Positions 33,903 to 48,243 of a stretch of DNA of 64,000 bases are shown piece after piece. Numbering within the stretch: position 1 is the first letter of the stretch; each line of letters starts with the position of its first letter. The stretch covers positions 1 through 64,000 of the forward strand of contig NZ_CAJXIV010000004.1 of the NCBI RefSeq assembly GCF_913054185.1, written 5' to 3'. Made by a program: the position numbers and the translations under genes. Origin of the DNA: an uncultured Shimia sp. GTDB taxonomy: Bacteria; Pseudomonadota; Alphaproteobacteria; Rhodobacterales; Rhodobacteraceae. The notes beneath the pieces are model-generated. The model saw nothing but the letters and a program-made list of their open reading frames with translations. It was not told the DNA's origin and did no database searches.

Positions 33903-34340
33903 TCACTGCATGTCATGCAGGTTGGACAGGAAGCCGTGCCAGCCTTTGTCGAGCGCCATAACCAGGCCAAAGCCGTCGACATTGGTGGGTAGGCCAGAAT
34001 GGATCAGCGTCAGCCGCGTGCCGCCGGGGGCTTCGGAAAGTTCCCACTCCACGGTGCTCATGGCGCCGTCCATCGGCCCCACTGTGAAATCCCACTTCAT
34101 GTAGTCATGTGGGGTGGCTTTCACCACTTTACCCCAGCACATGCGGTCGCCATCTTTTTGCGACGTCAGCGTGTAGTCTTCGCCCTCTGCGAGGTCTTTC
34201 TCAGCTGGGTGAAACCATTCGTTGAGCAGGTCAGCTTTGGTCAGGAACTCCCAGACGCGGGTCTTGGGTGCGGCCAGAAAAACCGATTTGCGAATGGTGG
34301 TGTCTTGGGAAAGCTCAGCCATTGTTGTGTCCAGTGTCAT
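33903..34340 (-). CDS. SRPBCC/AHSA1 domain protein
   Basis: 145 residues. The typical AHSA1 pattern is RVWEFLTKADLLNEWFHP, GEDYTLTSQKDGDRMCWGKVV and STVEWELSEAPGGTRLTLIHSG, a START-like ligand-binding fold. AGGA eight bases before the ATG at 34340 supports that start, which overlaps the upstream ArsR gene by 26 bases. ArsR/AHSA1 pairs are common; the ligand is unknown. Confidence 0.85.
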   Translation of the reverse strand: MTLDTTMAELSQDTTIRKSVFLAAPKTRVWEFLTKADLLNEWFHPAEKDLAEGEDYTLTSQKDGDRMCWGKVVKATPHDYMKWDFTVGPMDGAMSTVEWELSEAPGGTRLTLIHSGLPTNVDGFGLVMALDKGWHGFLSNLHDMQ

Positions 34341-34659
34341 CTGTGGTGTCCTTTTCAATTGCGGTTTTCAATGCGTCGAGACGGTCGTCCCAGAATTGAT
34401 CAAACCATCCCATCCATTCCAGCGCAGGTTTGAGGGCCAAGGCGTTGAGAGAATTGACCTTTTCTCGGCCGCGCGGGGCAACCTCGATCAATCCGCCGTC
34501 ACTGAGCACCACAAGGTGCTTTTTCACAGCGGCGCGGGTCATATCAAAGTTCTCAGCCACTTCGGCTATGGTCATCGGCTCCTGTCCTAAAAGGCGCAGG
34601 ATGTCGCGACGGGTGGGATCGCCAAGGGCGCGGAACACGGGTTGTAGGTGATCGGGCAT
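34315..34659 (-). CDS. ArsR family transcriptional regulator
   Basis: 114 residues. Winged helix of the ArsR/SmtB class: VFRALGDPTRRDILRLL, MTIAEVAENFDMTRAAVKKHLVVL and GGLIEVAPRGREKVNSL. Metal-binding cysteines of ArsR proper are absent, as in the AHSA1-linked subgroup. A TTG at 34674 is possible; the ATG at 34659 is preferred. Two copies of a palindrome lie upstream, overlapping an AT-rich -10 region, so autorepression is likely. Confidence 0.88.
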   Translation of the reverse strand: MPDHLQPVFRALGDPTRRDILRLLGQEPMTIAEVAENFDMTRAAVKKHLVVLSDGGLIEVAPRGREKVNSLNALALKPALEWMGWFDQFWDDRLDALKTAIEKDTTDDTGHNNG

Positions 34660-34676
34660 AACAGTCTCGCTCAAGT

Positions 34677-34718
34677 GATACCATTTGGTATCTCAATATA
34701 TATGATACCATTTGGTAC
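34677..34718. promoter_or_regulatory. Double operator of the ArsR gene
   Basis: GATACCATTTGGTATC (34677-34692) and GATACCATTTGGTAC (34704-34718) repeat the same palindrome 27 bases apart, flanking TATATAT, a likely -10 element for the minus-strand ArsR gene. Confidence 0.75.
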
Positions 34719-34786
34719 TGAGTCAAGTGGCCTCTGACATAACGCAAGCGCGGACCAAAAAGGCAGCCGCTGATGGGGGGATTTGA

Positions 34787-34968
34787 AGGGAGGTAAGTGG
34801 CGGGCCCGCAAACGCAGCCGTAGGGTTATCTCATTCCCGAGGACCTGTATGTACAGGTGGGTGCCAGGTAATCAGGCCAGGACCAGAACAGAGCCAGCTC
34901 CCTCGGAATTGCTTAAGGCCACCGGAATGCAACCGAATTACGAGAAGGGCAGAACCCGCCGCCTCTCT
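34787..34968 (+). ncRNA. Candidate structured RNA, family not recognised
   Basis: The 335-base gap before mmcB holds no convincing gene but has long-range complementarity: AGGGAGG (34787-34793) with CCTCTCT (34962-34968), and GGCGGG (34799-34804) with CCCGCC (34955-34960). The outer stem contains a G-U pair only on the plus strand. Inside, CCGAGG (34837-34842) pairs with CCTCGG (34901-34906) and encloses the palindrome ACCTGTA-TG-TACAGGT (34843-34858). It does not match the cores of RNase P, SRP, tmRNA or 6S RNA that I know. A weak promoter (TTGGTA near 34712, GACATA near 34736) could serve it. Confidence 0.3.
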
Positions 34969-35027
34969 ATCTATGCCTGAGGGTGGCACGGCGCAAGGGG
35001 TTGGGCAAAAATTGCGACTTGCATTTT

Positions 35028-35042
35028 GTTCTCTAAATGTTC
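35028..35042 (+). promoter_or_regulatory. Alphaproteobacterial SOS (LexA) box
   Basis: GTTC-TCTAAAT-GTTC matches the alphaproteobacterial LexA site GTTC-N7-GTTC exactly. It ends 11 bases before the mmcB start codon, so LexA binding would block its transcription. Confidence 0.85.
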
Positions 35043-35053
35043 ACGTTGGGAGC

Positions 35054-35521
35054 ATGGGTGACACAGCAACACAAACCTTACAGCCGGGGCAGTTACTTGC
35101 CCGTGGTGTGAGCCGCCATCTGCGCAGCCATGGCTATGTGTCGATTGAGGAATTTGTGCCCACACGGGGATTGCGAGTGGATGTGATGGCGCTTGGCCCC
35201 AAGGGTGAGATTTGGGTGATTGAGTGCAAATCCAGTCGCGCGGATTTTCAATCGGATACCAAGTGGGAGGGGTATCTGGAGTGGTGTGATCGGTATTTCT
35301 GGGCGGTGGACACCGAGTTTCCCACGGATCTGCTGCCAGAGGGCACGGGGCTGATTTTTGCGGATGCTTATGATGCGGAGATCATCCGAATGGCGCCGGA
35401 GGACAAGCTGGCGCCTGCGCGACGCAAAAAGATGATCCAGAAGTTTGCCACCGATGCGGCGCGGCGGCTGCACCGTTTTCGGGATCCCAAACTGGCGCCG
35501 ATGCCGGACGAGTCCCTCTAA
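35054..35521 (+). CDS. mmcB: MmcB-family DNA repair protein
   Basis: 155 residues. The family core is visible: LLARGVSRHLRSHGYVSIEEFVPTRG cut at VDVMALGPKGE, then WVIECKSSRADFQSDTKWEGY, with the Asp, Glu and Lys of a PD-(D/E)xK nuclease-like fold (VDVMAL, IECK). In Caulobacter mmcB is LexA-regulated and contributes to mitomycin C resistance. The perfect SOS box just upstream supports the assignment. I start at the ATG at 35054 with GGGAG upstream; the longer frame from 34973 would run through the SOS box. Confidence 0.85.
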   Translation: MGDTATQTLQPGQLLARGVSRHLRSHGYVSIEEFVPTRGLRVDVMALGPKGEIWVIECKSSRADFQSDTKWEGYLEWCDRYFWAVDTEFPTDLLPEGTGLIFADAYDAEIIRMAPEDKLAPARRKKMIQKFATDAARRLHRFRDPKLAPMPDESL

Positions 35522-35528
35522 CAGTCAC

Positions 35529-35555
35529 ATTTCCCAAATATCCCGAGGAGGGGGT
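35529..35555 (+). repeat. Dispersed intergenic motif, copy 4 (shortened)
   Basis: TTTCCCAAATATCCCGAGGA and a G-run, directly after the mmcB stop, resembles copies 1-3 but lacks the AATTGGC part. Confidence 0.35.
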
Positions 35556-35594
35556 ACAGTGGGATGTCCCGGAGGGGCTGGCCCTCCGAGAGGT

Positions 35595-35783
35595 TTACTT
35601 GGCCATCTGCCGTGCCGTGGCGGCAGCTGCACGAATTTCTTCGGCAATTTCTTCGGCTTCCTCAGGGTCAAAATCCATTGGGATTTCAATGCCCTCGCCT
35701 TCGATGAAAATACGCACAAACCCCTGATCGGTTGGGCCGATTTGCAGGTTGGCTTCGATGTCGCTTTCGGTGTTGATGCCCAT
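35595..35783 (-). CDS. Small conserved protein (DUF6324-like)
   Basis: 62 residues, acidic. It reads GINTESDIEANLQIGPTDQG and ends in a helical segment DPEEAEEIAEEIRAAAATAR. I recall this as a small roseobacter family (DUF6324). AGGAGA lies upstream of the ATG. No function is known. Confidence 0.7.
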   Translation of the reverse strand: MGINTESDIEANLQIGPTDQGFVRIFIEGEGIEIPMDFDPEEAEEIAEEIRAAAATARQMAK

Positions 35784-35907
35784 AGTGATCTCCTGGTGGA
35801 TTGGGGGCCCAAAAGGGCTGCGTTCTCATATGTTGCCAAATCGGGTATCCTGATCGTGACCCAAAGGCAAGAATGCGGGCCGTCCTGCGTTGGGCGGGGA
35901 GGAAAAA

Positions 35908-36396
35908 ATGCTTGGCAGTGTTGCTGTTCGTTCCTTTGAAGAGGCTGATCTGGATTGGCTGGTCGAGGCCCATGCCACGCTCTATGCGCGCGACGAAGGC
36001 TTTGATGACAGCTTTGGGCCACTGGTGGAGACCATCCTAAAGCGATTTTTGTTGGACCACGATTTTGCACGGGAACGAGGCTGGGTTGCAGATTGGGATG
36101 GTCACAGGTTGGGCAGTGTGTTTTGCGTTCAGGGCCCCCAAGAAAACTGGGCCAAGCTGCGGCTGTTTTTGGTGCTGCCGCAGGCGCGGGGATTCGGTCT
36201 TGGGCAACATCTGCTGGACACATGTTTGGGGTTTGCGCGCGGCGTGGGGTATGACGGTTTGACGCTTTGGACCCACAAAAGCCACGAGGCGGCCTGTGCG
36301 CTCTATGAAAAAAACGGCTTTGCGCTTGAGGCGGAGAAACCGGCGCAAAGCTTTGGCTGCGATCTGATCGAACAAACCTACAAAATTGTGTTTTAG
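35908..36396 (+). CDS. GNAT family acetyltransferase
   Basis: 162 residues. The acetyl-CoA loop is QARGFGLGQHLLDTC, followed by the conserved CALYEKNGFAL near the C-terminus. GGGGAGGA six bases before the ATG at 35908 decides the start. The substrate is unknown. It lies just upstream of tRNA-His on the same strand. Confidence 0.85.
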   Translation: MLGSVAVRSFEEADLDWLVEAHATLYARDEGFDDSFGPLVETILKRFLLDHDFARERGWVADWDGHRLGSVFCVQGPQENWAKLRLFLVLPQARGFGLGQHLLDTCLGFARGVGYDGLTLWTHKSHEAACALYEKNGFALEAEKPAQSFGCDLIEQTYKIVF

Positions 36397-36438
36397 ATGC
36401 TTGCAATCCCCGAACGGGGGCGGTAAATCGCCCTTGTT

Positions 36439-36515
36439 GCCGCCTTAGCTCAGTTGGTTAGAGCACTGGTTTGTGGAACCAGGGGTCCCCCGTTCGAGCC
36501 GGGGAGGCGGTACCA
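36439..36515 (+). tRNA. tRNA-His (GTG)
   Basis: Cloverleaf with acceptor GCCGCCT/AGGCGGT, D arm with TTAGCTCAGTTGGTTAGAGC, anticodon stem CTGGT/ACCAG with loop TTGTGGA (anticodon GTG at 36473-36475), T arm with GTTCGAG, and an encoded CCA (36513-36515). The discriminator is A73 and the first pair G1-U72, and no encoded G-1:C73 pair is present. This is the unusual alphaproteobacterial tRNA-His type. Confidence 0.97.
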
Positions 36516-36587
36516 CCCCCCTCAATACATGTGAAGTTCAATTGCCTGCGCACGTGGTGTTGCGGGTTGTTTGCGTCCCAAAAATTT

Positions 36588-36718
36588 GGGGCGGTTGCGG
36601 GGGGACAGACCCGGCAACCGCCCCGGATGTTGAAACACCAATGGGGATGTAAGTGTCTCAACAAGTGCTGACGGGGGGATGACCCATCAGCGGGAGGAAC
36701 GCGGCTTTTGATCGCGTT
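36588..36718. other. Run of hairpins between tRNA-His and a minus-strand gene
   Basis: Four inverted repeats follow one another: GGGGCGGTTGC/GCAACCGCCCC (36588-36598, 36614-36624), TTGAAACAC/GTGTCTCAA (36630-36638, 36653-36661), GCTGA/TCAGC (36667-36671, 36687-36691), AACGCG/CGCGTT (36698-36703, 36713-36718). None has a clear T-run. It may be a tRNA 3' processing or terminator region, or a small RNA. Confidence 0.35.
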
Positions 36719-36723
36719 TGGCT

Positions 36724-37353
36724 TTAAGGCGCTTTGCCCTGTGCCAGCCATTGTTCAAACAGCGCGATGTCGCTGGCGGGCCAGGGGCCGTCGCTGGGCA
36801 TGCTGCCGTCTTTTAGGCGTGACAAAATCAACGCTCCGTGTTGGCTCACAGCTTCATAAGACCCGAGGTCCAGATCACGCACCATGATCATCATGGCGAT
36901 GTCGTAGGGGCGAAACAGCGGGCGGATGTCGCGGGAAAACTGGGGGCAAAAATCCTCCGACATGGTGATTTTTGGGATTAGGGTGACTTCTGGAATGCCA
37001 AGTTTGGGCTGTAAAAGCGCCAGTTTGGCGTTGCTTTGGGCATGGCAGCGCACCCCAACCAACGGCTGATCTACGCCCCAGAAATTGCCAAGGTCCACGT
37101 CTGGCAAAACCGTGTCAGCGCAAGTGTGGGTGAGCACGGGCAGCGTGGTGCTGAGCGAATCCGGGGCGGTGCCGATCATATCAAACGCCAAAATGCCGTC
37201 TTCTGGCGGTTGCCGGTAGCGGTGCAACGCCAAAGTGGGTGCACGCCAACCGGAGGAGACCGCTCTGGCTTGCACCTGGACCAGCAGGTTGGGCGGTTGG
37301 CCTTCCTGTTGGGTCAGCGTCACCGTGTCGATGGCGTAGATGCGTTGGCTCAT
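36724..37353 (-). CDS. Uncharacterised protein linked to the YcaO/peroxidase cluster
   Basis: 209 residues. The ATG at 37353 has AGGA upstream. The C-terminal third reads FSRDIRPLFRPYDIAMM, SYEAVSQHGALILSRLKDGS and MPSDGPWPASDIALFEQWLAQG. That pattern is familiar from the ends of several bacterial peroxidase- and oxidase-associated proteins and recalls a c-type-cytochrome fold without a CxxCH haem motif. I cannot name a family. It is the downstream partner of the protease gene (35-base gap). Confidence 0.65.
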   Translation of the reverse strand: MSQRIYAIDTVTLTQQEGQPPNLLVQVQARAVSSGWRAPTLALHRYRQPPEDGILAFDMIGTAPDSLSTTLPVLTHTCADTVLPDVDLGNFWGVDQPLVGVRCHAQSNAKLALLQPKLGIPEVTLIPKITMSEDFCPQFSRDIRPLFRPYDIAMMIMVRDLDLGSYEAVSQHGALILSRLKDGSMPSDGPWPASDIALFEQWLAQGKAP

Positions 37354-37388
37354 GTGGCTGGTGTCCTTTGGCGTGTTCTCGGCAGATC

Positions 37389-38774
37389 TTAGGCGGTGAC
37401 GCAATAGCCACGGGCGCGATAGGTTTCAGCAATGCGGAAACACACGCCGCGGAAGGTCACTTCTTTGGTCAGCACGTCGATGTTGGGCACCGCGCCGTCG
37501 CGCAGGAACTCTGCAGAGGCCAGGATGATGGTGTGCAGCGCCTCACCGGAGGTGCCGTAACCAAAGTAGTCCGCCACGGCATCTTCGATGTCGAAGGGCA
37601 CCTGCGAGAATTCCGGGTGTTGAGCCAACATGGTGCGTAATAATTCGGCCCAAATGTTGCCTTGTACACTGAACACACGATGTGGTTCCGAGATGCTTTG
37701 GGGAGCAAAAGTGTGGGTGGGGCGCATCATCATATGCAGTGGTGGCGCGGTTTTGGAGAGGTCGGAAGTGGCGTCTGAGAGGGCCTGTCTGGGCAGGTCA
37801 CACGGGGTTGCCAATCGTAAATCAAGCTGGTCCAGAACGCCGTGCATGTGGCACGCCAAGGCACACTCGCCGCCAGGCCAGTCGTCACCTTCGCCTGCCA
37901 TATGCAAACCCACGGCAGCGCCAGTGTCCGGATCTATCCAGCAGGCCCCACTGTCACCGGGTAGGGACAAGGCGGTCATTGGGGCCGAAATGTCTTGTGG
38001 GACAAGACGGAAGCCGTCGACCTCGACAGTTTTGCTGCCGCCGTTGGCAAAGTTGTGCACCACTTTGTAGGTGCCAATACCATCCACGCGGGCGTGGGTC
38101 AGGCCGGTGGTGCGGCCATATTTGCAGAGATTGCGGCCCAGAGCTGCTGACGCCACACCGGTCAAGGTCAGATTGAGGTGTTTCAAGGTGGGCTGCCATG
38201 GGGTTGCGCCGGTCAAGGGCGCAAAAGCGGCGTCGCCATGACGGGACAACATGGATTTGCTCAGCCGGGCAATGGGCAGATCAGTGGTGGTGCCGCCATA
38301 GACCAGATCGCTGTCGGCGCCTTCGGGGGAGGACAGCACATGCCAGTTCGACAAAACCCCGGGTGAGCCGGTGGCGCGGTCAATGGCTATTGCGCCGATG
38401 GTGCCCCCGTGGGCGCCACGGCGTTGGCAGGGGCTTCCTGAAAGTAAAGTGGCGGTGTAACTGCTTTGCCCATCCGCCTGTTCGCGATGCACCTTGTAGG
38501 TGCTGGCAACCACATCCACAGGAAAGCCGTTGATGCGGCGCACGATACGTTGGCCCGGGTCAAGCTCGTCGTCGGGCAGCTTGGCCTGCACATGCACCCG
38601 CAGGCATAGTTTGTTGGTCGCCAGACCACCAACACGTTTGAAGCCGATGTCATAACCGGTCACGTCAGAACGGTCACAATACATGTCGCGCAGCGCTTCT
38701 AATGCCTCTTTGTGGGCGTCGTTGGCGACAGTTTGGGCTGCGGCTGTGGTCTCTGTTGAGAGGGGGCGGGCCAT
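37389..38774 (-). CDS. Trypsin-like (chymotrypsin-fold) serine protease
   Basis: 461 residues. The catalytic triad is His145 (VLSNWHVLSS), Asp181 (SRHGDAAFAPL) and Ser275 (SLPGDSGACW), in the right order and spacing. The first 90 residues carry a conserved-looking non-catalytic domain, and a C-terminal domain of about 130 residues follows (HPEFSQVPFDIEDAVADYF, EVTFRGVCFRIAETYRARG). There is no signal peptide, so it should be cytoplasmic. GGAGG lies before the ATG. It may process the product of the adjacent YcaO enzyme. The motif TTTGAGACAAA sits 23 bases upstream of its start. Confidence 0.82.
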   Translation of the reverse strand: MARPLSTETTAAAQTVANDAHKEALEALRDMYCDRSDVTGYDIGFKRVGGLATNKLCLRVHVQAKLPDDELDPGQRIVRRINGFPVDVVASTYKVHREQADGQSSYTATLLSGSPCQRRGAHGGTIGAIAIDRATGSPGVLSNWHVLSSPEGADSDLVYGGTTTDLPIARLSKSMLSRHGDAAFAPLTGATPWQPTLKHLNLTLTGVASAALGRNLCKYGRTTGLTHARVDGIGTYKVVHNFANGGSKTVEVDGFRLVPQDISAPMTALSLPGDSGACWIDPDTGAAVGLHMAGEGDDWPGGECALACHMHGVLDQLDLRLATPCDLPRQALSDATSDLSKTAPPLHMMMRPTHTFAPQSISEPHRVFSVQGNIWAELLRTMLAQHPEFSQVPFDIEDAVADYFGYGTSGEALHTIILASAEFLRDGAVPNIDVLTKEVTFRGVCFRIAETYRARGYCVTA

Positions 38775-38796
38775 TGGATCCTCCAGTTTGGTCGTC

Positions 38797-38807
38797 TTTG
38801 AGACAAA
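38797..38807 (-). promoter_or_regulatory. Shared promoter motif, protease copy
   Basis: TTTGAGACAAA, identical to 44045-44055 upstream of the peroxidase. Both are 23 and 48 bases upstream of minus-strand start codons, in the same orientation. Within the 148-base divergent region between protease and YcaO genes. Confidence 0.4.
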
Positions 38808-38922
38808 TGTGCCAAACCCACCGTTATTCTTGCGTGATTTGGCGGGATTACCTTGTATCTTTGGGGCCGGAGCGGGTGATTGACGGTATATTTTTCCGGG
38901 TTGTGAGGGGAATCAGGACGGG

Positions 38923-39975
38923 ATGTTCACGGAACTGCAGGAGTACGAGCGGTCTGCGTCGGGCGAGATGGCGTTGCCGAAAGCGATGCCGGGGTTTTGC
39001 GCGCCGGTTCTAAGACGGTTGGACTATGTCTTTGTTGGGCGTCCTGCCTGTGTGCCTGCGATTGTGATTGCAGGCGGTGTTCTCAAGGATGGCACACCAG
39101 TGTCAGGCGCGGGGGATCTGGTTGAGAACGCCTTGGTGCGACTGGCCGGCGAGGCGGCGGAGCAAATTGGGCTGCGCGCATTTGTCGGCGGATTGTCGGA
39201 TCAGGCGCCTGTTCTGGCGCACGATTTCAGTGAGCAGGTGGAAGTATCGGTGGCGCGGGCGGTTTTGCCCAAGTCAGAGGCGGAGACTGCTGGGTTTTCG
39301 GAAGGCTTAGCCGCGCACACAGACGTCGATGCGGCGCAAAGGCACGGCGTGTTGGAGCTTTTTGAACGGGACGCGGCGACGCATTGGTGGGCCGGGGCAA
39401 CAGAGGCTGTGGAACTGTTGGGCATTGAGGCGCTTGTGGCTCAGGTTCTGGGGGGCAGGATTGGACGACAGACGCGGGTGTTGGATGTGACCTGTGACAC
39501 CGGGGTGCCGGTGGCTCTGGCCGCGTCGTTTGATGCACGTGGCGGCGGATTTTGTTTTGGCGCAGCTGCAGGCATGCATTTACAAGAAGCAGTGGTGTCC
39601 GCGTTGCGCGAACTGGGGGCGGCGGAATTTGGGCATCAGTTGGAAGCTTCTCGGGGCGCCTTGCCCGAGTCCAAAGGATCAAATCTGACCGTCAACACAC
39701 TGACATTGGACAAGTTTAAAGCTGCATTTGTGACGCAGAAAGCTGCGCTTGGGGGGCAGGTTGAAATGCGGGGTGTGATCACGAACGAGGCGTGGGGCGC
39801 GGTTTGTGCCAAAAGCGCCATAAGTATTGTCGATCTGGGTTGTGTTGAAGCGCATTTTCGGGCCATCAAAGCAGTGAGTGCCACGTTGCAGACTGGGCGG
39901 GAAACACATGTAAGCCCACGGCTTCAGATGGCACTTCTGGAAAAAAGACGATGGACGCAGGGGCCTCTTTACTAA
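38923..39975 (+). CDS. YcaO-domain protein
   Basis: 350 residues. The YcaO ATP-binding signature is visible at residues 126-150: FSEGLAAHTDVDAAQRHGVL then ELFERDA, with the Glu of ERD in place. The second signature is AVVSALRELGAAEFG near residue 225. YcaO enzymes use ATP to activate backbone amides, forming azolines, thioamides or amidines on peptides, or act on ribosomal protein S12. The proline-rich PxPxP end of azoline-forming types is missing (it ends KRRWTQGPLY). No partner E1-like gene is near. AGGA precedes the ATG. Overlaps the next gene. Confidence 0.82.
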   Translation: MFTELQEYERSASGEMALPKAMPGFCAPVLRRLDYVFVGRPACVPAIVIAGGVLKDGTPVSGAGDLVENALVRLAGEAAEQIGLRAFVGGLSDQAPVLAHDFSEQVEVSVARAVLPKSEAETAGFSEGLAAHTDVDAAQRHGVLELFERDAATHWWAGATEAVELLGIEALVAQVLGGRIGRQTRVLDVTCDTGVPVALAASFDARGGGFCFGAAAGMHLQEAVVSALRELGAAEFGHQLEASRGALPESKGSNLTVNTLTLDKFKAAFVTQKAALGGQVEMRGVITNEAWGAVCAKSAISIVDLGCVEAHFRAIKAVSATLQTGRETHVSPRLQMALLEKRRWTQGPLY

Positions 39976-42002
39976 TGGAGCAGGACCAAACCAGTTTTGA
40001 GGCGCCGGACAAGCCATCGGAGCGGCTTCAGATCGACGTGATCGGCGGGTTTCAGGCCCGGTGTGATGGCGGGCGTGTTGAGATCAAAAAGAAGAAAGCG
40101 GCGGCGATTTTGGTGCTGCTGTCGCTGTCACCTGATCTGCGCATGACGCGGGAAAAACTGCGCGGTGTGCTGTGGCCGGACAGCTCCGAGACAGCGGCGC
40201 AGACCAGCTTGCGCAACGCAGTTTGGGCCCTAAAAGCAGCGTTGAATGACGCGGGGTTTGACGGGATCTCCAGCGATCGCAGTGATGTGTGGTTGGCGGA
40301 GAAGCGGGTTGACGTGGATCTGGATGTGCTGCTCGACGCGGCGGAGCACGGTGACATGGCGCCGATTTTGCGGGTGGATCCGCAAAAGTTGGCGCGGTTT
40401 GATCGTGATCAGGTTGAAATCAACGACATGTTTTCTGTGCGAGTGACAGACTCGGTTCAACATGTTTGTGGGTTGATGCGGCACCGCCTAAATGCGGCGG
40501 CAGATGCGGCTGGCACGCCAGAAGAGCAGCTCGCCATCCTGCAGTTTGTCGCAAGCATGGACACGGCCGATGAGGGTGCGGCGCGGCGGTTGATCAAAGC
40601 GTATTGGCAGAGTGGCCAAATGGCCAATGCGTTGACTGTGTATCAGTCGCTGTGGAGCCTGCTCGATCAGGAGTATGGCGAAGAGCCGTCTGAGGAAACC
40701 CAGCAACTGGTGGTCGAGATTAAGTCGCCGGCAAGTGCGCCGGTGCCCAAGACCTTGCGCCCGGTGATTGTTGTGGCCCAGCCGAGCTATGGCCATTTGT
40801 CAGCGGAGCGGGCGGGTGAGGCCGAAGCGCTGCGTCAAGCGCTCTGTGCCAACCTCTCTAGGTTCCGTGAGTGGCAGATTTTTGATGCAGCTTTGATGGC
40901 CTCTAACGCGCAGGTAGGAGAACCAGGCGCGGCGAGTTACTCATTGGTGCTACAGCCGCAGCTCCGTGGTGACAGCTTGGCCTGTCGCGCGGTTCTGTCC
41001 GACCGCAGTTCTGGTGAGTTGTTGTGGTCTGAGGCGCTGAGCGACGCGGGGCAGATGACGTTGGCCGAAGGGCCGGGGGCGGCAGAGCGGTTGGCGGTGG
41101 CGTTAAACCTGCATCTGTCGGCCTTCAAGGGACCGCTGATTGCCACCAACAAAACCGCACCAAGCGCGTATGAGCGTTGGGTTGAGGCGCAGGGGCATAT
41201 TCTGCAGTTTACTCTGGACGGATGGAAGACCGCCGAAGGGTTGCTTGACGCACTGATCCGAGATTACCCGGAGTTCAGTCGGGCGTATTCCAGCCGCGCG
41301 TCGATTGAAAACATGCGGCAGATTTCCTTTCCGGGGCTGTATAGTTCGCCGAATTTACATGTCGAAGGGCTGCGACTGGCGCGACGGGCGATTGAACTGG
41401 ACCCAATGGACAGTCGGGGGCAGCTGGCCATGGGCTGGTCCGCTGCGATGTCACGGCAGTTTGAGCAGGCAGAATTGGCCTTTGATCTGGCGTTTCAGTA
41501 CAATGAAAATGACCCTTGGACGATGACGTCCTCTGCTGTGGGGCTGGCCTTTTGTGATCAGCTTGAGGCCTCAAATCGGTTGCTGGATCTGCTGTTCAAA
41601 CTGAACTTCCGATTGCAGCCGTCCCACTGGAGCTACGTGGCGGCTTCGCGGTTTATGGCGGGGGATTATGAGGGCTGCATTGCTGCGTCTGAGAAATCGG
41701 ACGAGATTTCCCATGACGTGCCTGCGTGGCATGCGTCAGCGCTGGGATTGGTCGGGCGCTTGCCTGAGGCGGCTTCGGTGGCGCGGCGGTTTGAAAGCAT
41801 TGCGCGGGCCAATTGGGTCGCAGAAGGGCCGCCGGAGCGGGCCGAAATCACACGCTGGTTGGTGTCTGGCTTCCCGATCCGCAATCGCAAAGTCTGGCTT
41901 GCGCTGCGGGACGGGTTGCGATTGGCGGATATGCCGGTGCCAGATTTGATTCAAAGCGACAAAATTGCGCTTGGATATCAATTAGATCCCGGCAAATCCT
42001 AA
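39951..42002 (+). CDS. SARP/BTAD-type transcriptional regulator with TPR repeats
   Basis: 683 residues from the ATG at 39951; the ATG at 39975 overlapping the ycaO stop is also possible. An N-terminal winged helix (LQIDVIGGFQARCDGG, TREKLRGVLWPDSSETAA, SLRNAVWALKAALNDAGF) is followed by a BTAD-like helical domain (residues about 130-255, RRLIKAYWQSGQMANALTVY). A central domain recalls TolB/adenylate-cyclase-linked folds, and the C-terminal 270 residues look like TPR repeats (ALIRDYPEFSRAYSSRASI, LARRAIELDPMDSRGQLAMG). Probably activates the neighbouring genes. Confidence 0.8.
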   Translation: MDAGASLLMEQDQTSFEAPDKPSERLQIDVIGGFQARCDGGRVEIKKKKAAAILVLLSLSPDLRMTREKLRGVLWPDSSETAAQTSLRNAVWALKAALNDAGFDGISSDRSDVWLAEKRVDVDLDVLLDAAEHGDMAPILRVDPQKLARFDRDQVEINDMFSVRVTDSVQHVCGLMRHRLNAAADAAGTPEEQLAILQFVASMDTADEGAARRLIKAYWQSGQMANALTVYQSLWSLLDQEYGEEPSEETQQLVVEIKSPASAPVPKTLRPVIVVAQPSYGHLSAERAGEAEALRQALCANLSRFREWQIFDAALMASNAQVGEPGAASYSLVLQPQLRGDSLACRAVLSDRSSGELLWSEALSDAGQMTLAEGPGAAERLAVALNLHLSAFKGPLIATNKTAPSAYERWVEAQGHILQFTLDGWKTAEGLLDALIRDYPEFSRAYSSRASIENMRQISFPGLYSSPNLHVEGLRLARRAIELDPMDSRGQLAMGWSAAMSRQFEQAELAFDLAFQYNENDPWTMTSSAVGLAFCDQLEASNRLLDLLFKLNFRLQPSHWSYVAASRFMAGDYEGCIAASEKSDEISHDVPAWHASALGLVGRLPEAASVARRFESIARANWVAEGPPERAEITRWLVSGFPIRNRKVWLALRDGLRLADMPVPDLIQSDKIALGYQLDPGKS

Positions 42003-42017
42003 ACCATTTTTTTGCGG

Positions 42018-42389
42018 TTAGACGCACTTGCGCAGTGCGTAATCCGCGATGCGTTTGGAGCGGAAATTGTGCTCTTCCTCCGATGGAGTGACCAGCGTTG
42101 CATCATAGGCTTCGTCGTAAAAATCCGGCAGCGTGTAAGGGCTGGGTGGTGGCAGGTCGAGGTCGTCTGGATGTGGCAGCATGATGCTCACCACTTTCTG
42201 ATCCGGCGCGTTGAAGATTTTAAGTGGATCTTCGCTGGCAAATTCCTCGGCTAGTTCTGCAACATTGCTGGGCACTTGATCGCGAAAGTCACCGACCGTT
42301 TGCGGCACAGTGTCCGCTTCGCGCGCCCATCCTTGCAGGATTTCGCCCATTTTCAGGTAGTTTTTGATTTTGATTTCATAGGGATCCAT
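42018..42389 (-). CDS. Small acidic protein downstream of the heme peroxidase
   Basis: 123 residues with a very strong ribosome-binding site (AAGGAGG, eight bases before the ATG), so it is surely translated. The N-terminal half is amphipathic-helical (MDPYEIKIKNYLKMGEILQG, NVAELAEEF). The middle is Pro/Asp-rich (HPDDLDLPPPSPYTLPDFYD) and the C-terminus basic with one Cys (RIADYALRKCV). It is 30 bases after the peroxidase gene. The family is not recognised. It is the best candidate in this cluster for a substrate or partner of the YcaO or peroxidase, but nothing proves that. Confidence 0.75.
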   Translation of the reverse strand: MDPYEIKIKNYLKMGEILQGWAREADTVPQTVGDFRDQVPSNVAELAEEFASEDPLKIFNAPDQKVVSIMLPHPDDLDLPPPSPYTLPDFYDEAYDATLVTPSEEEHNFRSKRIADYALRKCV

Positions 42390-42419
42390 TGTTCGTCCTC
42401 CTTGTTTGAACAGTGTTTT

Positions 42420-43997
42420 TCAGGTGATGGGGGTGGTCGCGACCAGCGTGGGCATGTCGCGAATTGGCGTGCTGCCATAGGCGGCAGTTTCGAGGGCCTG
42501 GGCGATCTGCGCGTCCGTGTCGGATGGCGTGTCATCCTCAAAGACCGGGGCAAAGGCCGCGCCAAGGATGAGGCCGCCAAGCGGGCCGTAGGTGGCACCG
42601 TTGTTTCCATCGATTTGCGCTTCCAAGGCAAGGAACGTAACCAGCGGCAGGTTGGCGGTTATGGTCGCTTTGTCTGCATCTGACATGGGTGGTTTGTGGC
42701 CTGGGCGCACGGCAGCCTCAAGGGCGGCCATGCCGGTTGTGGCGATCCGGTCGTAGTGGGTTGCGGCGTCAAACGGTGCCGTGAGGCCCTGCGCGGTCAG
42801 AGCATCAGCTGCGGATTGGATCAGGTCTTGCACGCGTCCCAAGCCAACCCATTTTTCGCGCAACAGATCGCGCATTGCGGTGCCCGCGGGGTAGTGGTCT
42901 TTGGTGGGCTTGCCCGCGGTGGCAATGGTCATGCCATCTGCGGCGTGTGGTCCAAAACGAATGGCCCAGTTGAAATTGTCCGGCAGCTGCGCGCCAGTCG
43001 CGGTGAAGAACAGATCCCAGTCGATCTTCCAGTCAATTGGCGTGGGCACCATGCCCGGTTCATGCAGCGAGGAATGGTTGATGATCTTACGCAGATCAAC
43101 TTCGCCAAGGATATGATCGCCGACGCCATTGTTCAGCATGTACTCGGGGCGCACCATGCTGTGCGCCATGCGGGCAATGCCATAAGCGAACAGGTCGTTT
43201 GTTTGTGAAGGTGTACGGCCAAGCGGTTGCAGATCGGGGGTGGCGTCAAACAATGCCAGGATGTCCGCAGCCATGATGCGCGGCAGCAGGTCGTGGCGCA
43301 GAATGCGGCGGTAGAGGCGCGCCGTGGCCAGCCGCGCCACGCGTGCGCGATGATGCGGTGGAATCGGGTCTCCGGTGCCGGGCATTGGAGTGGTCGCTGC
43401 TTGCGCCACAAGCATGTTGTAAACCGCATGAAAAAACGCAGTGAGTTGGGCGAGGATATTGTTGTCATCGTTGCGCGAGTCGGGGATCAGCACGTCGGTA
43501 AAAGGCCCATCTGCATCCGGCCCATCGGCGCTGTAGCGATTGCGGGGCAGGTCCGCTGACGGGGACAAACGGTCATCTGACATGCGACCAGCTGGGCGGA
43601 ATTTGCCCAAGCGCAACCGATGGGTACCGTCTTGAGGTTTCATGTCAAAGGCGTGTGGGCACACAACAGGGCCGCCGCCAAACAGAGTTTCCAGCGCGAG
43701 CTTTTCCTGGCGCAGGTTTTGGGACCGCCCGCCGATATCGTCATAGGCACGGGGCACCAGCGAACTGAACACCAGATCATGACCAGCAAGTTGGAACAGG
43801 TAGGAATAGCCGGCGGGCACGCCGAGGTGGCTGCCGTTTGGTTGGTTGAGGAAGCCTTTGGCGGTGTTGGTGGAACTGTTGTTGTTGTTGAGCAAAGTCG
43901 CCAGATAGACCGTCATCTCTTCGGTGAGAGGTGACGGTTGTGATGGTCCACCGGTTGCGGCGAAGACATCGTCGATTTCGAGGTCACGGTGCGACAT
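42420..43997 (-). CDS. Animal-type heme peroxidase
   Basis: 525 residues. The peroxidase-cyclooxygenase superfamily signatures are present: distal His73 in FQLAGHDLVFSSL, the catalytic Arg175 in IPDSRNDDNNIL with FFHAVYNML after it, and proximal His280 in IARMAHSMVRPEYML. There is no signal peptide, so a cytoplasmic location is likely, which is unusual for a bacterial peroxidase of this class. It could cross-link or oxidise a peptide or protein. It is transcribed away from the YcaO/regulator pair, with the shared motif TTTGAGACAAA 48 bases upstream. Confidence 0.85.
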   Translation of the reverse strand: MSHRDLEIDDVFAATGGPSQPSPLTEEMTVYLATLLNNNNSSTNTAKGFLNQPNGSHLGVPAGYSYLFQLAGHDLVFSSLVPRAYDDIGGRSQNLRQEKLALETLFGGGPVVCPHAFDMKPQDGTHRLRLGKFRPAGRMSDDRLSPSADLPRNRYSADGPDADGPFTDVLIPDSRNDDNNILAQLTAFFHAVYNMLVAQAATTPMPGTGDPIPPHHRARVARLATARLYRRILRHDLLPRIMAADILALFDATPDLQPLGRTPSQTNDLFAYGIARMAHSMVRPEYMLNNGVGDHILGEVDLRKIINHSSLHEPGMVPTPIDWKIDWDLFFTATGAQLPDNFNWAIRFGPHAADGMTIATAGKPTKDHYPAGTAMRDLLREKWVGLGRVQDLIQSAADALTAQGLTAPFDAATHYDRIATTGMAALEAAVRPGHKPPMSDADKATITANLPLVTFLALEAQIDGNNGATYGPLGGLILGAAFAPVFEDDTPSDTDAQIAQALETAAYGSTPIRDMPTLVATTPIT

Positions 43998-44379
43998 GGC
44001 TCAGTCCTTTTGGTTGCTGAGACCACTTTATCGGGAATTTCGAATTTGAGACAAAATCAATCAAACTCGCGCAAACACGCGTATTTACGAAGAAAATAAG
44101 GGGAAAATTGGCTGGATTGTGTCACATGTGATGCGGAGAAATTAGCGGAATCACGATTTGTTAACGGCCAGAGGACTCAAGATGAGTGCATTGTGACTGG
44201 TGTTTTTAACAGGGCGACTGGACACCATTTGCACGAAAATACTTGGAGAGACGCGCAAAAGCGCGGAATCTGTTTCCATTTTTGGGGTAATGTTGGCGTT
44301 TTCTCACCTTTGTTTCCGGGTGTGGGGCGCACCAATGCAGAACCCTTTGCGTAGCGTGTTGCGGCGGTGCAGCCCTTGT
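43998..44379. promoter_or_regulatory. AT-rich intergenic region upstream of the peroxidase
   Basis: About 380 bases between the peroxidase start and the stop of the DUF6476 gene. It is AT-rich near 44040-44170 and holds the shared 11-base motif at 44045-44055 plus a GCGC-AAAA-GCGC hairpin near 44256. A 119-codon open frame crosses it but has no family or start support. Confidence 0.5.
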
Positions 44380-44703
44380 TTATTCGCTCACAGATGCCCC
44401 AAACGCCTCAGGAGACAGAACCACTTCTTGGCGCAACGCGCCGGTGATGCGATCGTGAATCAAGATGCGGTTGTCATCGGTGACAACGGCCACCCAACCG
44501 TCCCCCATGGTCACTGCCTGGGCGGTCACACCGTCTTGCAAAGCGAAGTTTTCTGGTAAGATGGGACCATCATCACGGAAGCGCATGACAATCAGCGCAA
44601 CCACGGTTACAAGCCCGACCATCATCACCACCGTCAGCCCTGTCACCAGCAGGCGCAGGAAGCGCAGGTTGGCAGGTTCAATTGGTTCCGGAGACTCATC
44701 CAT
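44380..44703 (-). CDS. DUF6476 membrane protein
   Basis: 107 residues. A transmembrane helix (FLRLLVTGLTVVMMVGLVTV, about residues 14-38) is followed by a small soluble domain (TMGDGWVAVVTDDNRILIHD, GALRQEVVL). This is the DUF6476 pattern of Rhodobacteraceae. The ATG is at 44703; AAGGG lies eight bases upstream, inside the divergent pseudouridine synthase gene. Its start codon overlaps that gene's start codon. Confidence 0.78.
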   Translation of the reverse strand: MDESPEPIEPANLRFLRLLVTGLTVVMMVGLVTVVALIVMRFRDDGPILPENFALQDGVTAQAVTMGDGWVAVVTDDNRILIHDRITGALRQEVVLSPEAFGASVSE

Positions 44704-45730
44704 GGCAGAGGCCCTTGTAGAATTTGTGATTGCGGACAATCCGCCCAAGCGTCTTGATAAGGCGCTTTCGCGGGATGTGCCAGTGGAAGCGAGCTTGAGC
44801 CGCACCCGGCTGGCAAAGTTGATTGCAGGTGGCAGCGTGACGTTGGATGGCTCGGTGGTGAACGACCCCAAACACAAGGTGGCTGGCGGTGAAGCGGTTG
44901 CGATCACTGTGCCGCTTGCCGAAGACAGTCACATTGGGCCAGAAGACATCCCGCTGGATGTGATCTGGGAAGATGACGATCTGATTGTGATTAATAAGCC
45001 CGCCGGCATGGTGGTGCATCCGGCACCGGGCACGCCTAATGGAACGCTTGTAAATGCGCTCTTGCATCACTGTGGGGATACTCTGTCTGGCGTGGGTGGC
45101 ATGAAGCGGCCCGGGATTGTGCACCGGATCGACAAAGAGACCAGTGGCTTGTTGGTTGTCGCGAAGACCGATGCAGCCCACCAAGGGTTGGCGGCGCAGT
45201 TTGAGGCCCACACGGTGGAGCGCTACTACCGCGCGGTGTGTTACGGGGTGCCGGATGCCAATGACCCAAGGCTGCGCGGGGTGCGGGGGGTGAATTTCGA
45301 GCCGGGCAACATCATGAAAGTCACAACCCATCTGGCGCGGCATAAAACGGATCGACAGAGACAGGCGGTGTTGTTTGAAGGCGGACGGCATGCGGTGACC
45401 CGTGTGCGGATTGTGGAGCCGCTTGGTGACCCGGCCGTGGCCTGCTTGGTGGAATGCTGGCTGGAAACTGGACGCACGCATCAAATTCGCGTGCATATGA
45501 CCCATGCAGGGCACGGCTTGATTGGCGATCCGGTTTACGGCGGGCGGCGCAAGCTGGCTGAGAAAGCCATTGGCCCCAAAGGGGTGATGGCAGCAAAGTC
45601 TTTTGAGCGGCAAGCATTGCACGCTGCGGTATTGGGCTTTGAGCATCCGGTGACAGGCGAAGATTTGCGGTTTGAAGCGCCTTTGCCAGAAGATATGGCG
45701 GAGTTGATCGCTGATCTGGGCGGGGCGTGA
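44702..45730 (+). CDS. RluC/RluD-family pseudouridine synthase
   Basis: 342 residues. An N-terminal S4 RNA-binding domain (RTRLAKLIAGGSVTLDG) precedes the catalytic domain with IVHRIDKETSGLLVVAKT, the Asp of which is the nucleophile, and TGRTHQIRVHMTHAGHGLIGDPVYGG. It most resembles RluD, which modifies helix 69 of 23S rRNA, but RluC cannot be excluded. GGAGA upstream of the ATG at 44702 lies within the divergent DUF6476 gene. Confidence 0.9.
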   Translation: MAEALVEFVIADNPPKRLDKALSRDVPVEASLSRTRLAKLIAGGSVTLDGSVVNDPKHKVAGGEAVAITVPLAEDSHIGPEDIPLDVIWEDDDLIVINKPAGMVVHPAPGTPNGTLVNALLHHCGDTLSGVGGMKRPGIVHRIDKETSGLLVVAKTDAAHQGLAAQFEAHTVERYYRAVCYGVPDANDPRLRGVRGVNFEPGNIMKVTTHLARHKTDRQRQAVLFEGGRHAVTRVRIVEPLGDPAVACLVECWLETGRTHQIRVHMTHAGHGLIGDPVYGGRRKLAEKAIGPKGVMAAKSFERQALHAAVLGFEHPVTGEDLRFEAPLPEDMAELIADLGGA

Positions 45731-45754
45731 ATAGGAAATTTCACGCCATAAGAA

Positions 45755-45802
45755 TGACTTGGCGATCTCACTTTCCCTGAGATGCCAAGTCACGTGATTT
45801 TT
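45755..45802 (+). terminator. Intrinsic terminator after the pseudouridine synthase
   Basis: TGACTTGGC-g-ATCTCA (45755-45770), seven-base loop, TGAGAT-GCCAAGTCA (45778-45792): 15 pairs with one bulge, then CGTGATTTTT. It ends at the stop codon of the convergent NTF2-like gene. Confidence 0.75.
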
Positions 45803-46199
45803 ATGTGTTGAGCGGCACGACGTTGGTTACGGTTTCGCGAAAGAAATCGACTTGGCCGTCGGCCTCATGGGAAATGATGTAGGTGATGCTGTTGCAAAGG
45901 CAGTTGCGCACACCATAGAAAAACTCCTGTTCAAATGTGGTCATAACCCAGCCAGATTGATCCAGTGCGGTGCTCTCGATTCGTTTGGCCTTGGTGCCCT
46001 GTGGAAACACCTCCGTGGCGAGGCGCTGCAGGATTGGCCCCATCGCATCAAGGCCTTGGCCAGATTGCCAGCTGACATCCTCGTCGTCCTGAAAGTGATC
46101 GATGCGAAAATCTATGTCAGCGGACATATGGGCCAACAGTGTCGCGTCACCTGCGGCAAATTTTCGAAGCAGGGTTTCGATGGCGGTTGGCGTGGTCAT
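45801..46199 (-). CDS. NTF2-like/SnoaL-like protein
   Basis: 132 residues with the NTF2-like profile: AIETLLRKFAAGDATLLAHM, DIDFRIDHF, VMTTFEQEFFYGVRN, VDFFRETVT. GGAGATCC lies just before the ATG at 46199. Family members are small cone-shaped barrels, some enzymatic. Divergent from a LysR regulator that probably controls it. Confidence 0.7.
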   Translation of the reverse strand: MTTPTAIETLLRKFAAGDATLLAHMSADIDFRIDHFQDDEDVSWQSGQGLDAMGPILQRLATEVFPQGTKAKRIESTALDQSGWVMTTFEQEFFYGVRNCLCNSITYIISHEADGQVDFFRETVTNVVPLNT

Positions 46200-46254
46200 T
46201 TTGGATCTCCGTATATGCGTGTCATTGCAAATGGAAATCGCAGAGTCCTGTGCT

Positions 46255-46278
46255 ATAAACAATTCAGGCAATGTTTAT
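46255..46278. promoter_or_regulatory. Probable LysR-type operator
   Basis: ATAAACA (46255-46261), ten bases, TGTTTAT (46272-46278) between the divergent NTF2-like and LysR genes, 21 bases before the LysR start. The spaced A/T-ended palindrome fits LysR-type sites. Confidence 0.6.
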
Positions 46279-46298
46279 GCTAAATATAGGTAACAACT

Positions 46299-47126
46299 AT
46301 GATTGAGCTGACTCCTTTGACCTATTTCAAAAGCGCGTTTGAGACCGGTTCATTCAGCGGTGCGGCCCGGGCAAATGGTGTGCGTCAACCAACGGTATCC
46401 ACTGCCATTCAAAAGCTCGAAGAGGCGCTTGGTGGCGCGGTGTTCCTCAGGGAACGGCGTGGATTGGTGGCCACTGAACTGGGCAAAAACCTCTACGATG
46501 AGATTTCGGACCCGGTTCGAAAGCTCACTGGCGTGACAGAGCGTATGCGCGCCAAGCCTCGCAAAAACCTGCGGATATACTGCCAGCCGGACGTTCTGGT
46601 TGCCCCCTTTGCACCCGTGTTCCGCAGCTTGCGTCAAGACGCTCCTGAATTGGTTCTGAATTTTTGCGACGGTGCAGATGATGCTGATATTGGGCTTGTT
46701 TCCGAGCTGTGTTGTCCCTCGGGTCATTCTTTCGATATGCTGCGCGAAGAGGTTTATGGCGTGGCGGTGGCTTGTGATCGGGCCTTAGCAAAGGCGCAGT
46801 CTTTGGGGCTGTCAGATATTGCCGGGGAACCGCGGATCGATAGGCCGTATTGCCCGCAAGCCAACCGGTTGCAGGGCATGGAAGCCGATGTTGATGTTGC
46901 GCCAGCGCAGGCAATCAATGATCAGCAAGTTCTTGATTTGGTCGCGGCCGGACTGGGCATTGCGTTTGTGCCCTTGTCCCACAGCGAGGCCCATAAGGGG
47001 GTTGTGGTGCAGCGTCTCCGGCAGGCACCTGAAATTCGACGCACCGTGGGTGTCTCCGCCCGAAAAACCGCTTTTGCACAGGATATTGCCAACCGGTTTG
47101 TCGCTCTTTTCAACCAAAATCAGTAG
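46299..47126 (+). CDS. LysR family transcriptional regulator
   Basis: 275 residues. N-terminal winged helix: YFKSAFETGSFSGAARANG, VRQPTVSTAIQKLEEALGG, VFLRERRGLVATELGK. The effector domain has AGLGIAFVPLSHSEAHKG. The inducer is unknown. Divergent from the NTF2-like gene with a palindromic operator between. Confidence 0.88.
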   Translation: MIELTPLTYFKSAFETGSFSGAARANGVRQPTVSTAIQKLEEALGGAVFLRERRGLVATELGKNLYDEISDPVRKLTGVTERMRAKPRKNLRIYCQPDVLVAPFAPVFRSLRQDAPELVLNFCDGADDADIGLVSELCCPSGHSFDMLREEVYGVAVACDRALAKAQSLGLSDIAGEPRIDRPYCPQANRLQGMEADVDVAPAQAINDQQVLDLVAAGLGIAFVPLSHSEAHKGVVVQRLRQAPEIRRTVGVSARKTAFAQDIANRFVALFNQNQ

Positions 47127-47253
47127 CACATGCGCAAGGGAGGCAGACCTTTGCGGTTGCAACATTGCGCACTTGCCCGTGAGGTAAGGCGGCAGCCATG
47201 GCATTGGCTTGGAAAAAACCTTACTCTGGGAGTCAGAAATTTGCGCGTGCTGG

Positions 47254-47281
47254 TTGAAACCTTCTGTGAGCGTCCTACATT
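47254..47281 (+). promoter_or_regulatory. Promoter candidate upstream of rpoH
   Basis: TTGAAA (47254-47259), 16 bases, TACATT (47276-47281). It fits a sigma-70 promoter and also resembles the heat-shock form (GTTGAA, CCTACAT). Within the 220-base gap before rpoH. Confidence 0.45.
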
Positions 47282-47346
47282 GATGTTAACAACATAAACA
47301 TACGCCCAAGACAATCAGCGTAAGACAGACAAGGGAGGCATTCGCC

Positions 47347-48243
47347 ATGAGCAATTACAAAAATCTGCCGGCACCCACACCAGAAGGTGGTCTCAACCGG
47401 TATCTTCAGGAAATTCGCAAATTCCCGCTATTGGAACCCGAAGAAGAGTACATGCTGGCCAAGCGCTGGGTGGAAGAGCAAGATGCTGATTCTGCGCACA
47501 AAATGGTCACCTCGCACCTGCGTCTCGCGGCCAAAATTGCCATGGGCTATCGCGGCTACGGCCTGCCACAGGCTGAGGTGATCTCCGAGGCCAACGTTGG
47601 TCTGATGCAAGCTGTGAAGAAGTTTGACCCAGAAAAAGGTTTCCGTCTGGCGACTTATGCGATGTGGTGGATCCGCGCGAGCATTCAGGAATATGTGCTG
47701 CGCAGTTGGTCCATGGTGAAACTTGGCACCACGTCGGCGCAGAAAAAGCTGTTCTTCAACCTGCGGAAAGCCAAAGCGCGGATTGGCGCGTTGGAAGATG
47801 GCGATATGCGCCCGGAAAACGTGCAGCGGATTGCAACTGACCTTGGTGTGACTGAGAAAGAAGTGATCTCGATGAACCGGCGCATGTCCGGTGGGGATGC
47901 TTCGCTGAACGCGCAGGTTGGCACCGAGGGTGAAGGCACCATGGAGTGGCTGGATTGGCTGGAGGATGAAACCGCCAACCAAGCGCGAGACTATGAGGCC
48001 AAAGATGAGCTGGATGCCCGTCGTGAGCTTCTGACGGAGGCCATGGACGTGCTGAACGATCGGGAGAAAGACATCCTGACCCAACGCCGTTTGACAGAGA
48101 AGGCGGTCACATTGGAAGACCTGAGTGGTCAATATGATGTGAGCCGTGAGCGGATCCGTCAGATTGAAGTGCGGGCCTTTGAGAAGCTGCAGAAACGCAT
48201 GCGCGAGTTGGCTGCCACACGCGGGATGCTGGCGGCGCACTAA
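47347..48243 (+). CDS. rpoH: RNA polymerase heat-shock sigma factor RpoH
   Basis: 298 residues. Sigma-32 type: region 2 (RLATYAMWWIRASIQEYVLR), the RpoH box QKKLFFNLRK at residues 132-141 that separates it from other sigmas, and region 4 with [20 protein letters not shown]. It directs the heat-shock and general stress regulon. Alphaproteobacteria often have two RpoH proteins; I cannot say which this is. A terminator follows. Confidence 0.94.
   Translation: MSNYKNLPAPTPEGGLNRYLQEIRKFPLLEPEEEYMLAKRWVEEQDADSAHKMVTSHLRLAAKIAMGYRGYGLPQAEVISEANVGLMQAVKKFDPEKGFRLATYAMWWIRASIQEYVLRSWSMVKLGTTSAQKKLFFNLRKAKARIGALEDGDMRPENVQRIATDLGVTEKEVISMNRRMSGGDASLNAQVGTEGEGTMEWLDWLEDETANQARDYEAKDELDARRELLTEAMDVLNDREKDILTQRRLTEKAVTLEDLSGQYDVSRERIRQIEVRAFEKLQKRMRELAATRGMLAAH

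Follow-up and report, generated by a model that had tools for sequence, protein, structure and literature searches.

A four-gene core at a variable tRNA-His site

In a window of 64,000 nucleotides from an uncultured Shimia sp. (Rhodobacteraceae; contig NZ_CAJXIV010000004.1, positions 1 to 64,000, forward strand), six genes at 36724-43997 lie between a tRNA-His gene and a conserved flank. The initial annotation described them as an uncharacterised cluster combining a YcaO protein, a trypsin-like protease, an animal-type heme peroxidase, a SARP/BTAD regulator and a small acidic protein, and all six open reading frames (ORFs) are indeed open where it placed them. The conserved unit behind the six genes is a four-gene core comprising the YcaO, the BTAD regulator with its tetratricopeptide (TPR)-like repeats, the heme peroxidase and the 123-residue acidic protein, which we call pX. 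The protease and the 226-residue protein appear to be accessory genes of Shimia. The features are as follows.

36439..36515, plus strand: tRNA-His(GTG), found by ARAGORN; left boundary of the variable site
36724..37353, minus strand: P0001, protein of 209-226 residues, accessory; no Pfam or NCBIfam match at E 0.1
37389..38774, minus strand: P0002, trypsin-like serine protease, accessory; triad His145/Asp181/Ser275
38923..39975, plus strand: P0003, YcaO, core gene; PF02624, E 2.2e-19
39951..42002, plus strand: P0004, BTAD (SARP-like) regulator with TPR-like repeats, core gene; PF03704, E 5.8e-10
42018..42389, minus strand: P0005 (pX), small acidic protein of 123 residues, core gene; proposed substrate/carrier
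42021..42053, minus strand: codons of the conserved pX tail RIADYALRKCV (Tyr117, 42039-42041; Cys122, 42024-42026)
42420..43997, minus strand: P0006, animal-type heme peroxidase, core gene; homologues pass PF03098
44380..44703, minus strand: DUF6476 gene (PF20082), right boundary and conserved flank, followed by RluD at 44702-45730 (PF00849)

Above the Pfam cut-off only the YcaO and BTAD domains were matched, the latter bearing out the assignment of the regulator, and four of the six proteins had no such match. NCBIfam added only YcaO-type matches for P0003 and weak TPR-type matches for P0004. Ten flanking genes (33903-48243) were scanned at E 0.001; none matched a family of the E1-like, TfuA, flavin dehydrogenase or transporter kind, and one of the ten matched nothing. 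The statement that neither an E1-like partner nor a transporter is nearby thus stands, and the flank scan rules out a plain thiazole/oxazole-modified microcin (TOMM) or TfuA cluster in the window. None of the six cluster proteins was matched by PADLOC, which rules out a known defence system.

The core was found at 21 loci in Alphaproteobacteria, one per genome and in several gene orders, with the YcaO decayed in one of them (L142). These loci, our group A, include close kin (L141-L143 from one genus; L192 and L195 from Paracoccus) and do not represent 21 independent events. Five further loci pair a YcaO and a peroxidase with a different Cys-tailed small protein (group B, L104 and L105; group C, L156, L191 and L223). 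Within Shimia, the genus that the genome of the window shares with Shimia sagamensis, the cluster recurs in the same gene order on five other contigs, six in total, and across these pX is the best-kept gene, with 89-99% identity compared with 57-76% for the YcaO. Of 25 Shimia genomes, 9 carry some version of the module, a count that excludes G149, in which the peroxidase match was weak. The peroxidase profile matched 13 of 149 genomes of the family; among the 12 other than our own, five (L028, L030, L032, L034 and L036) have an adjacent YcaO, BTAD regulator and small protein, in gene orders that differ from that of the window, and the other seven have no YcaO in the stretch fetched around the peroxidase. 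In the class search (385 genomes), the peroxidase was matched in at least 26 genomes and the YcaO in at least 40; the two occurred together in our own genome, G264, G401, G267, G520 and G444, and lay far apart in G055, G319 and G549. In the phylum search (349 genomes), the peroxidase was matched in at least 31, and 6 of 16 neighbourhoods held the module (G742, G810, G727, G786, G798 and G828). Neighbourhoods were fetched for all 12 family matches outside our own genome, 5 of 25 class matches and 16 of 30 non-own phylum matches (G120 had been fetched earlier). The initial annotation had proposed tabulating such co-occurrence, with linkage confined to close relatives as a refuting outcome. That outcome is not what was seen: the YcaO, the peroxidase and the 123-residue protein do recur together in other genera and families.

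Profiles built without the sequences in question recovered pX at L141-L145 (E 2e-18 to 1e-33) and at L188, L189, L192, L194 and L195 (E 2e-6 to 7e-19). A census of the 385 class genomes returned four pX matches, all in genomes already in the model, so that it is informative for the lack of pX in the remaining genomes. A tblastn search with the L141 pX returned no match among plasmids, although the profiles located pX on five of them. Eight plasmid records were opened from searches listing 30, 22 and 17 matches, and six carry the module: Mesorhizobium huakuii, Paroceanicella profunda, Phaeobacter inhibens P78, Paracoccus aminovorans, P. denitrificans and QY30. Of the remaining two, the Microvirga record has the peroxidase alone (by annotation) and the other the regulator only.

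Two fusions, independent of each other, link all three of the YcaO, the peroxidase and pX. In Shimia G165, YcaO and peroxidase form a single protein of 818 residues (YcaO 57-270, peroxidase 391-816), followed by pX and the regulator. Our module profiles matched its two parts at E 5e-38 and E 2.7e-72, and Pfam at E 2.8e-14 for the YcaO and E 3.5e-4, under the cut-off, for the peroxidase. In G130 (L030), peroxidase and pX form one protein of 663 residues. Because of the co-occurrence and these fusions at other loci, the cluster is more than a chance assembly.

A tRNA-His gene flanks the module at L002-L006 as well, and also L036, a quite different version of the module in another genus. The Shimia tRNA-His/DUF6476 site is occupied by the module in six genomes; in G155, G160 and G161 the tRNA-His lies only ~100-200 bases from DUF6476/RluD, an empty site. 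In G158, G169, G156 and G165 the site holds ~9 kb of other DNA, and in G150 ~1.4 kb; ~9.5 kb separates the module from DUF6476 in G164 and G168, and the 10 kb fetched in G153, G167 and G154 showed no tRNA. The variable tRNA-His site, the position of L036 beside tRNA-His and the plasmid copies suggest that the module may be mobile. A duplicated tRNA end of the kind left by an integrase was ruled out, since a search of the window for the 21 bases near the tRNA-His 3′ end, with up to three mismatches allowed, gave a single occurrence.

Active sites of YcaO and peroxidase and the C-terminal tail of pX

The residues E77, E80, E145, E148, R149 and E230, which we take to be the YcaO ATP/Mg site, are kept in all 25 aligned YcaO proteins (24 from modules and the unlinked copy of G810; the cut-off L101 and the decayed L142 were left out). 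As had been noted, P0003 lacks a C-terminal PxPxP and ends in TQGPLY. No E1-like or ocin-ThiF domain was found in it by Pfam or NCBIfam, and none of the ten flanking genes supplies such a partner. The initial annotation had named a ribosomal S12-type YcaO as a refuting alternative. P0003 has no match to the S12-type model NF040716 at E 0.1 (equivalog score 700 bits), and other module YcaOs reach at best E 0.07 and 11.5 bits, so that this alternative is rejected. The best NCBIfam match of the module YcaOs is the TOMM cyclodehydratase SagD/TIGR03604, yet all nine scanned score 23 to 200 bits, below its curated cut-off of 219.25. In sequence searches of the Protein Data Bank (PDB), the YcaO gave weak matches (TruD, E 2e-4) and the peroxidase gave no match.

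All 26 aligned module peroxidases retain Gln69, His73 and the proximal His279, and 25 of them retain Arg175. The distal His73 and Arg175 of the initial annotation are thereby upheld, and its proximal His is residue 279 rather than 280. P0006 itself has no Pfam match; its homologues L028, L102 and L104 pass the cut-off of An_peroxidase PF03098. By its distal Gln/His, Arg and proximal His, P0006 is a predicted heme peroxidase of the peroxidase-cyclooxygenase (An_peroxidase) type. It shares these residues with bacterial peroxidase-cyclooxygenases such as peroxicins, as described in PMC4420034, and differs in having Gly72 rather than Asp directly before the distal His and in its linkage to a YcaO.

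In a peroxidase tree of 44 rows, all 21 group A rows fell outside a 23-row set (support 99/94) made up of 20 solo peroxidases and groups B and C, and the module labels required 3 changes against a shuffled mean of 14.9. This tree was built before L191-L195 and L220-L224 were fetched and from ORFs of at least 400 residues, so that the 327-residue match at L041 was dropped. In the YcaO tree (54 rows after five duplicates were dropped), 20 of the 21 group A sequences together with the G810 copy split from the rest (98/99), and the labels required 5 changes together against 21.1 when shuffled. Both trees drew long-branch warnings. Members of groups B and C are placed within or adjacent to sets of other peroxidases and YcaOs, so their pairings may be of separate origin.

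The small protein is acidic, as initially described, with 24 Asp and Glu against 12 Lys and Arg, and often contains a single Cys. All 21 group A pX sequences carry a Y-x4-C tail, of the general pattern [RSA]-[IVLF]-[AG]-[DI]-Y-x4-C-x, with the Cys as the penultimate residue in 20 of them and third from last in L103. The penultimate residue is likewise Cys in all three group C proteins (L156, L191 and L223), which the group A profile does not match. By comparison, only 8 of the 504 other genes predicted in these loci have Cys at this position. The two group B proteins (L104 and L105) have a terminal Cys plus another fourth from the end.

We compared pX with the nitrile-hydratase-like leader peptides (NHLPs) of ribosomally synthesized and post-translationally modified peptides (RiPPs). 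TIGR03793 (NHLP leader) is not among the matches listed for P0005. In profile-profile comparison, a set of 12 pX rows, selected by us from 17, scored 73% (P 3e-5) against 11 NHLP-like domains of the class, and group B alone scored 93.5% (P 2e-7), with 0 of 100 column shuffles as high in either case. All 17 rows reached only 44.7%, with 3 of 100 shuffles as high in a control that was unstable, some shuffles going far higher, up to 131.7. The NHLP domain stretches replaced a poor first alignment of badly chosen ORFs, which had given 0.2%. The likeness is thus weak, row-dependent and suggestive only. The genome of the window also has, at G000:C10:10521-10916, a 226-residue open frame with two sub-cut-off matches to the NHLP leader model; such paired matches occur likewise in other genomes of the class, and some match was present in 33 of 86 searched.

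Regulator, accessory genes and neighbours of other modules

The TPR matches of P0004 lie below the Pfam cut-off, and no N-terminal winged-helix DNA-binding domain was matched in it by Pfam at E 0.1. Group C modules have a larger regulator (L191:5380-7866; L223:5126-7606; L156:11560-14061); that of L191, the one scanned, has a nucleotide-cyclase domain ahead of BTAD and TPR. A module-type BTAD regulator also occurs in Paracoccus sp. SMMA_5_TC (L193:6585-8483), with no YcaO, peroxidase or pX in the 14 kb fetched. Shimia G160 and G161 carry such a peroxidase and a nearby regulator-like gene, with no YcaO or pX beside the peroxidase.

The protease triad His145/Asp181/Ser275, described as intact in the initial annotation, is invariant in six sequences. 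Its suggested role in cutting the modified product was not supported: the protease profile matched 7 of 25 Shimia genomes, and among the module loci scanned for it the protease was present only at Shimia-type loci and in G163. In that genome it sits at the tRNA-His site without the core, and a separate contig (L220) holds another version of the module. This distribution and the solitary G163 copy rule out the protease as a core gene. It matches alpha-lytic protease at E 0.17 and is faintly similar (37389-38774) to the N-terminal domain of plant NARROW LEAF 1 (NAL1_N, E 0.086, below the cut-off). P0001 more likely starts at the ATG at 37353, which gives 209 residues instead of 226. It is absent from two of the six window-type clusters (L005 and L006), and upstream of the L103 peroxidase there is a weakly matching homologue (E 1.3e-4).

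Two modules have further neighbours. The G038 module (L032:11338-16582) adjoins an amidase-like protein of 833 residues and one of 892 residues in which, judged by eye, a trypsin-like protease is combined with an exo/endonuclease-phosphatase-like domain. On the P. denitrificans plasmid (L195:8093-13133), the module has as neighbours an additional YcaO of the ordinary SagD type, a dehydrogenase of the SagB type and two more genes.

Proposed modification of pX and alternative explanations

We propose that the core is a RiPP-like protein-modification module, in which YcaO and then the peroxidase modify the C-terminal Cys, and perhaps the Tyr, of pX. This would account for the observations that the genes are linked and twice fused, that the active sites are intact and that the tail is fixed. 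On balance, we consider this reading probable; what we infer is that pX is the substrate, in which order the steps follow, what their chemistry is and how the product is used. pX would act as a leader or carrier that presents its last residues, [RSA]-[IVLF]-[AG]-[DI]-Y-x4-C-x. YcaO, with ATP, would activate the backbone amide before the C-terminal Cys, with thiazoline as the simplest product. The heme peroxidase would subsequently oxidise this product, converting thiazoline to thiazole (a conversion that a flavin enzyme carries out in a known pathway), oxidising Tyr or Cys, or forming a cross-link. The BTAD-TPR protein would control expression. Since no exporter or GG site was seen and pX is highly conserved, we favour a modified tail that mostly stays on pX inside the cell. 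The modified peptide envisaged in the initial annotation is therefore retained as regards YcaO and the peroxidase, whose recurrence with pX outside close relatives and two fusions support it, and dropped as regards the protease.

Several observations weigh against this proposal. The M. huakuii YcaO (L188) lies outside the group A YcaOs, and the group B and C peroxidases sit among the solo ones. The fused L030 peroxidase is the sole aligned one without Arg175. The group B tails differ (HHLIRCCAAC and HHLIRSCASC), no GG leader-cleavage site was seen in pX by eye, and the NHLP link hinges on the choice of rows, falling when all 17 are used and nearly vanishing with the first NHLP alignment. AlphaFold models are poor, with a mean predicted local distance difference test score of 46.8 for pX and 35.6 for P0001. 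Moreover, G810 retains pX and a peroxidase beside a YcaO reduced to remnants; its full YcaO copy lies elsewhere and clusters with those of the modules in the tree, and the surrounding 18 kb yielded neither a peroxidase nor pX.

The peroxidase-pX fusion could also be expected if pX were a lasting subunit or activator of the peroxidase, its YcaO-modified Cys (thiazoline, thioamide or similar) serving as cofactor, ligand or redox relay, and the peroxidase were the user rather than the maker of the modification. A single Cys at a fixed position, the lack of an exporter or E1 partner in the window flanks and the status of pX as the best-kept gene, unlike a diversifying secreted peptide, are all in keeping with this alternative. 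Nevertheless, we regard it as unlikely: 19 of the 20 solo-labelled peroxidases have no YcaO or pX in the fetched stretch, so the class needs no such partner (stretch lengths vary, L190 is solo by annotation only, and the twentieth is a second peroxidase beside the L145 module), and a precursor fused to its modifying enzyme is also reported in borosins. A further reading, in which a Cys-derived and perhaps Tyr-Cys cross-linked C-terminal group is made by YcaO and peroxidase and then kept as a protein-borne redox cofactor for the peroxidase, is a tentative possibility. The patchy presence in Shimia, the plasmid copies, the variable tRNA-His site and the resemblance to YcaO RiPP pathways would also fit a secreted or toxic modified peptide directed against competitors or phages and freed by the Shimia protease or by another elsewhere. 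However, the tail is fixed rather than variable, the protease is found only in Shimia, no exporter or immunity gene was seen in the window flanks, and PADLOC gave no match, making this quite improbable. We give still less credence to an oxidative-stress island in which peroxidase, regulator and thiol protein cooperate while YcaO modifies an unrelated target. Peroxidases of the superfamily without a YcaO in many searched genomes and the frequent single Cys of pX are compatible with it, but the YcaO-peroxidase fusion and the YcaO beside a peroxidase in three module types make it very improbable.

The proposed modification of pX is closest in outline to NHLP azol(in)e pathways. In PMC12455567, an NHLP leader precedes the single Cys that is acted on by the YcaO MprC together with MprD, a flavin oxidase; the guidance of a YcaO and a flavin oxidase to one Cys by such leaders is known from this work and from a TOMM survey (PMC4603692). 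The mpr pathway (MprC/MprD/MprE) shares with the module as proposed here a YcaO working on a long leader or carrier with a C-terminal Cys, and an oxidase partner; a weak NHLP-like profile is present in part of the pX set. In contrast, the module has a heme peroxidase in place of the flavin oxidase and a fixed Y-x4-C-x tail, and differs from NHLP and TOMM systems in having no E1-like domain in the window, no GG site by eye, no variable core and no exporter in the window flanks. The SagB-like FMN dehydrogenase of TOMMs is absent from the window flanks; one lies beside the L195 module, next to the second, ordinary YcaO. YcaO-TfuA thioamide RiPPs share a YcaO without an E1-like partner in the window and differ in that no TfuA family occurs among the ten flanking genes. 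Borosins are reported to have a precursor beside or fused to its modifying enzyme, as the precursor-like pX occurs both separate and fused behind an enzyme (L030); their enzymes (methyltransferases) and chemistry are unrelated, and the likeness is an analogy only. Since a search at the window for several of the defining parts came up empty, assigning the module to a known RiPP class would not be warranted.

The partners known for YcaO enzymes are E1-like proteins, RiPP recognition elements, TfuA and flavin enzymes. Among the matches listed in our search of open-access titles and abstract openings, no description of a YcaO-heme peroxidase pair was found. The parts are small and, by eye, cytoplasmic-looking, which makes the chemistry directly testable in Escherichia coli; among the carriers are Phaeobacter inhibens and strains of Paracoccus that are on record as cultured or with complete genomes. 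The module may represent an undescribed way to chemically alter the C-terminal end of a protein. If the proposal is correct, a heme peroxidase as the standing partner of a YcaO, fused to it at one locus, would add a new oxidant to those of ribosomal peptide modification, and the fixed Y-x4-C-x C-terminus would be a new target site.

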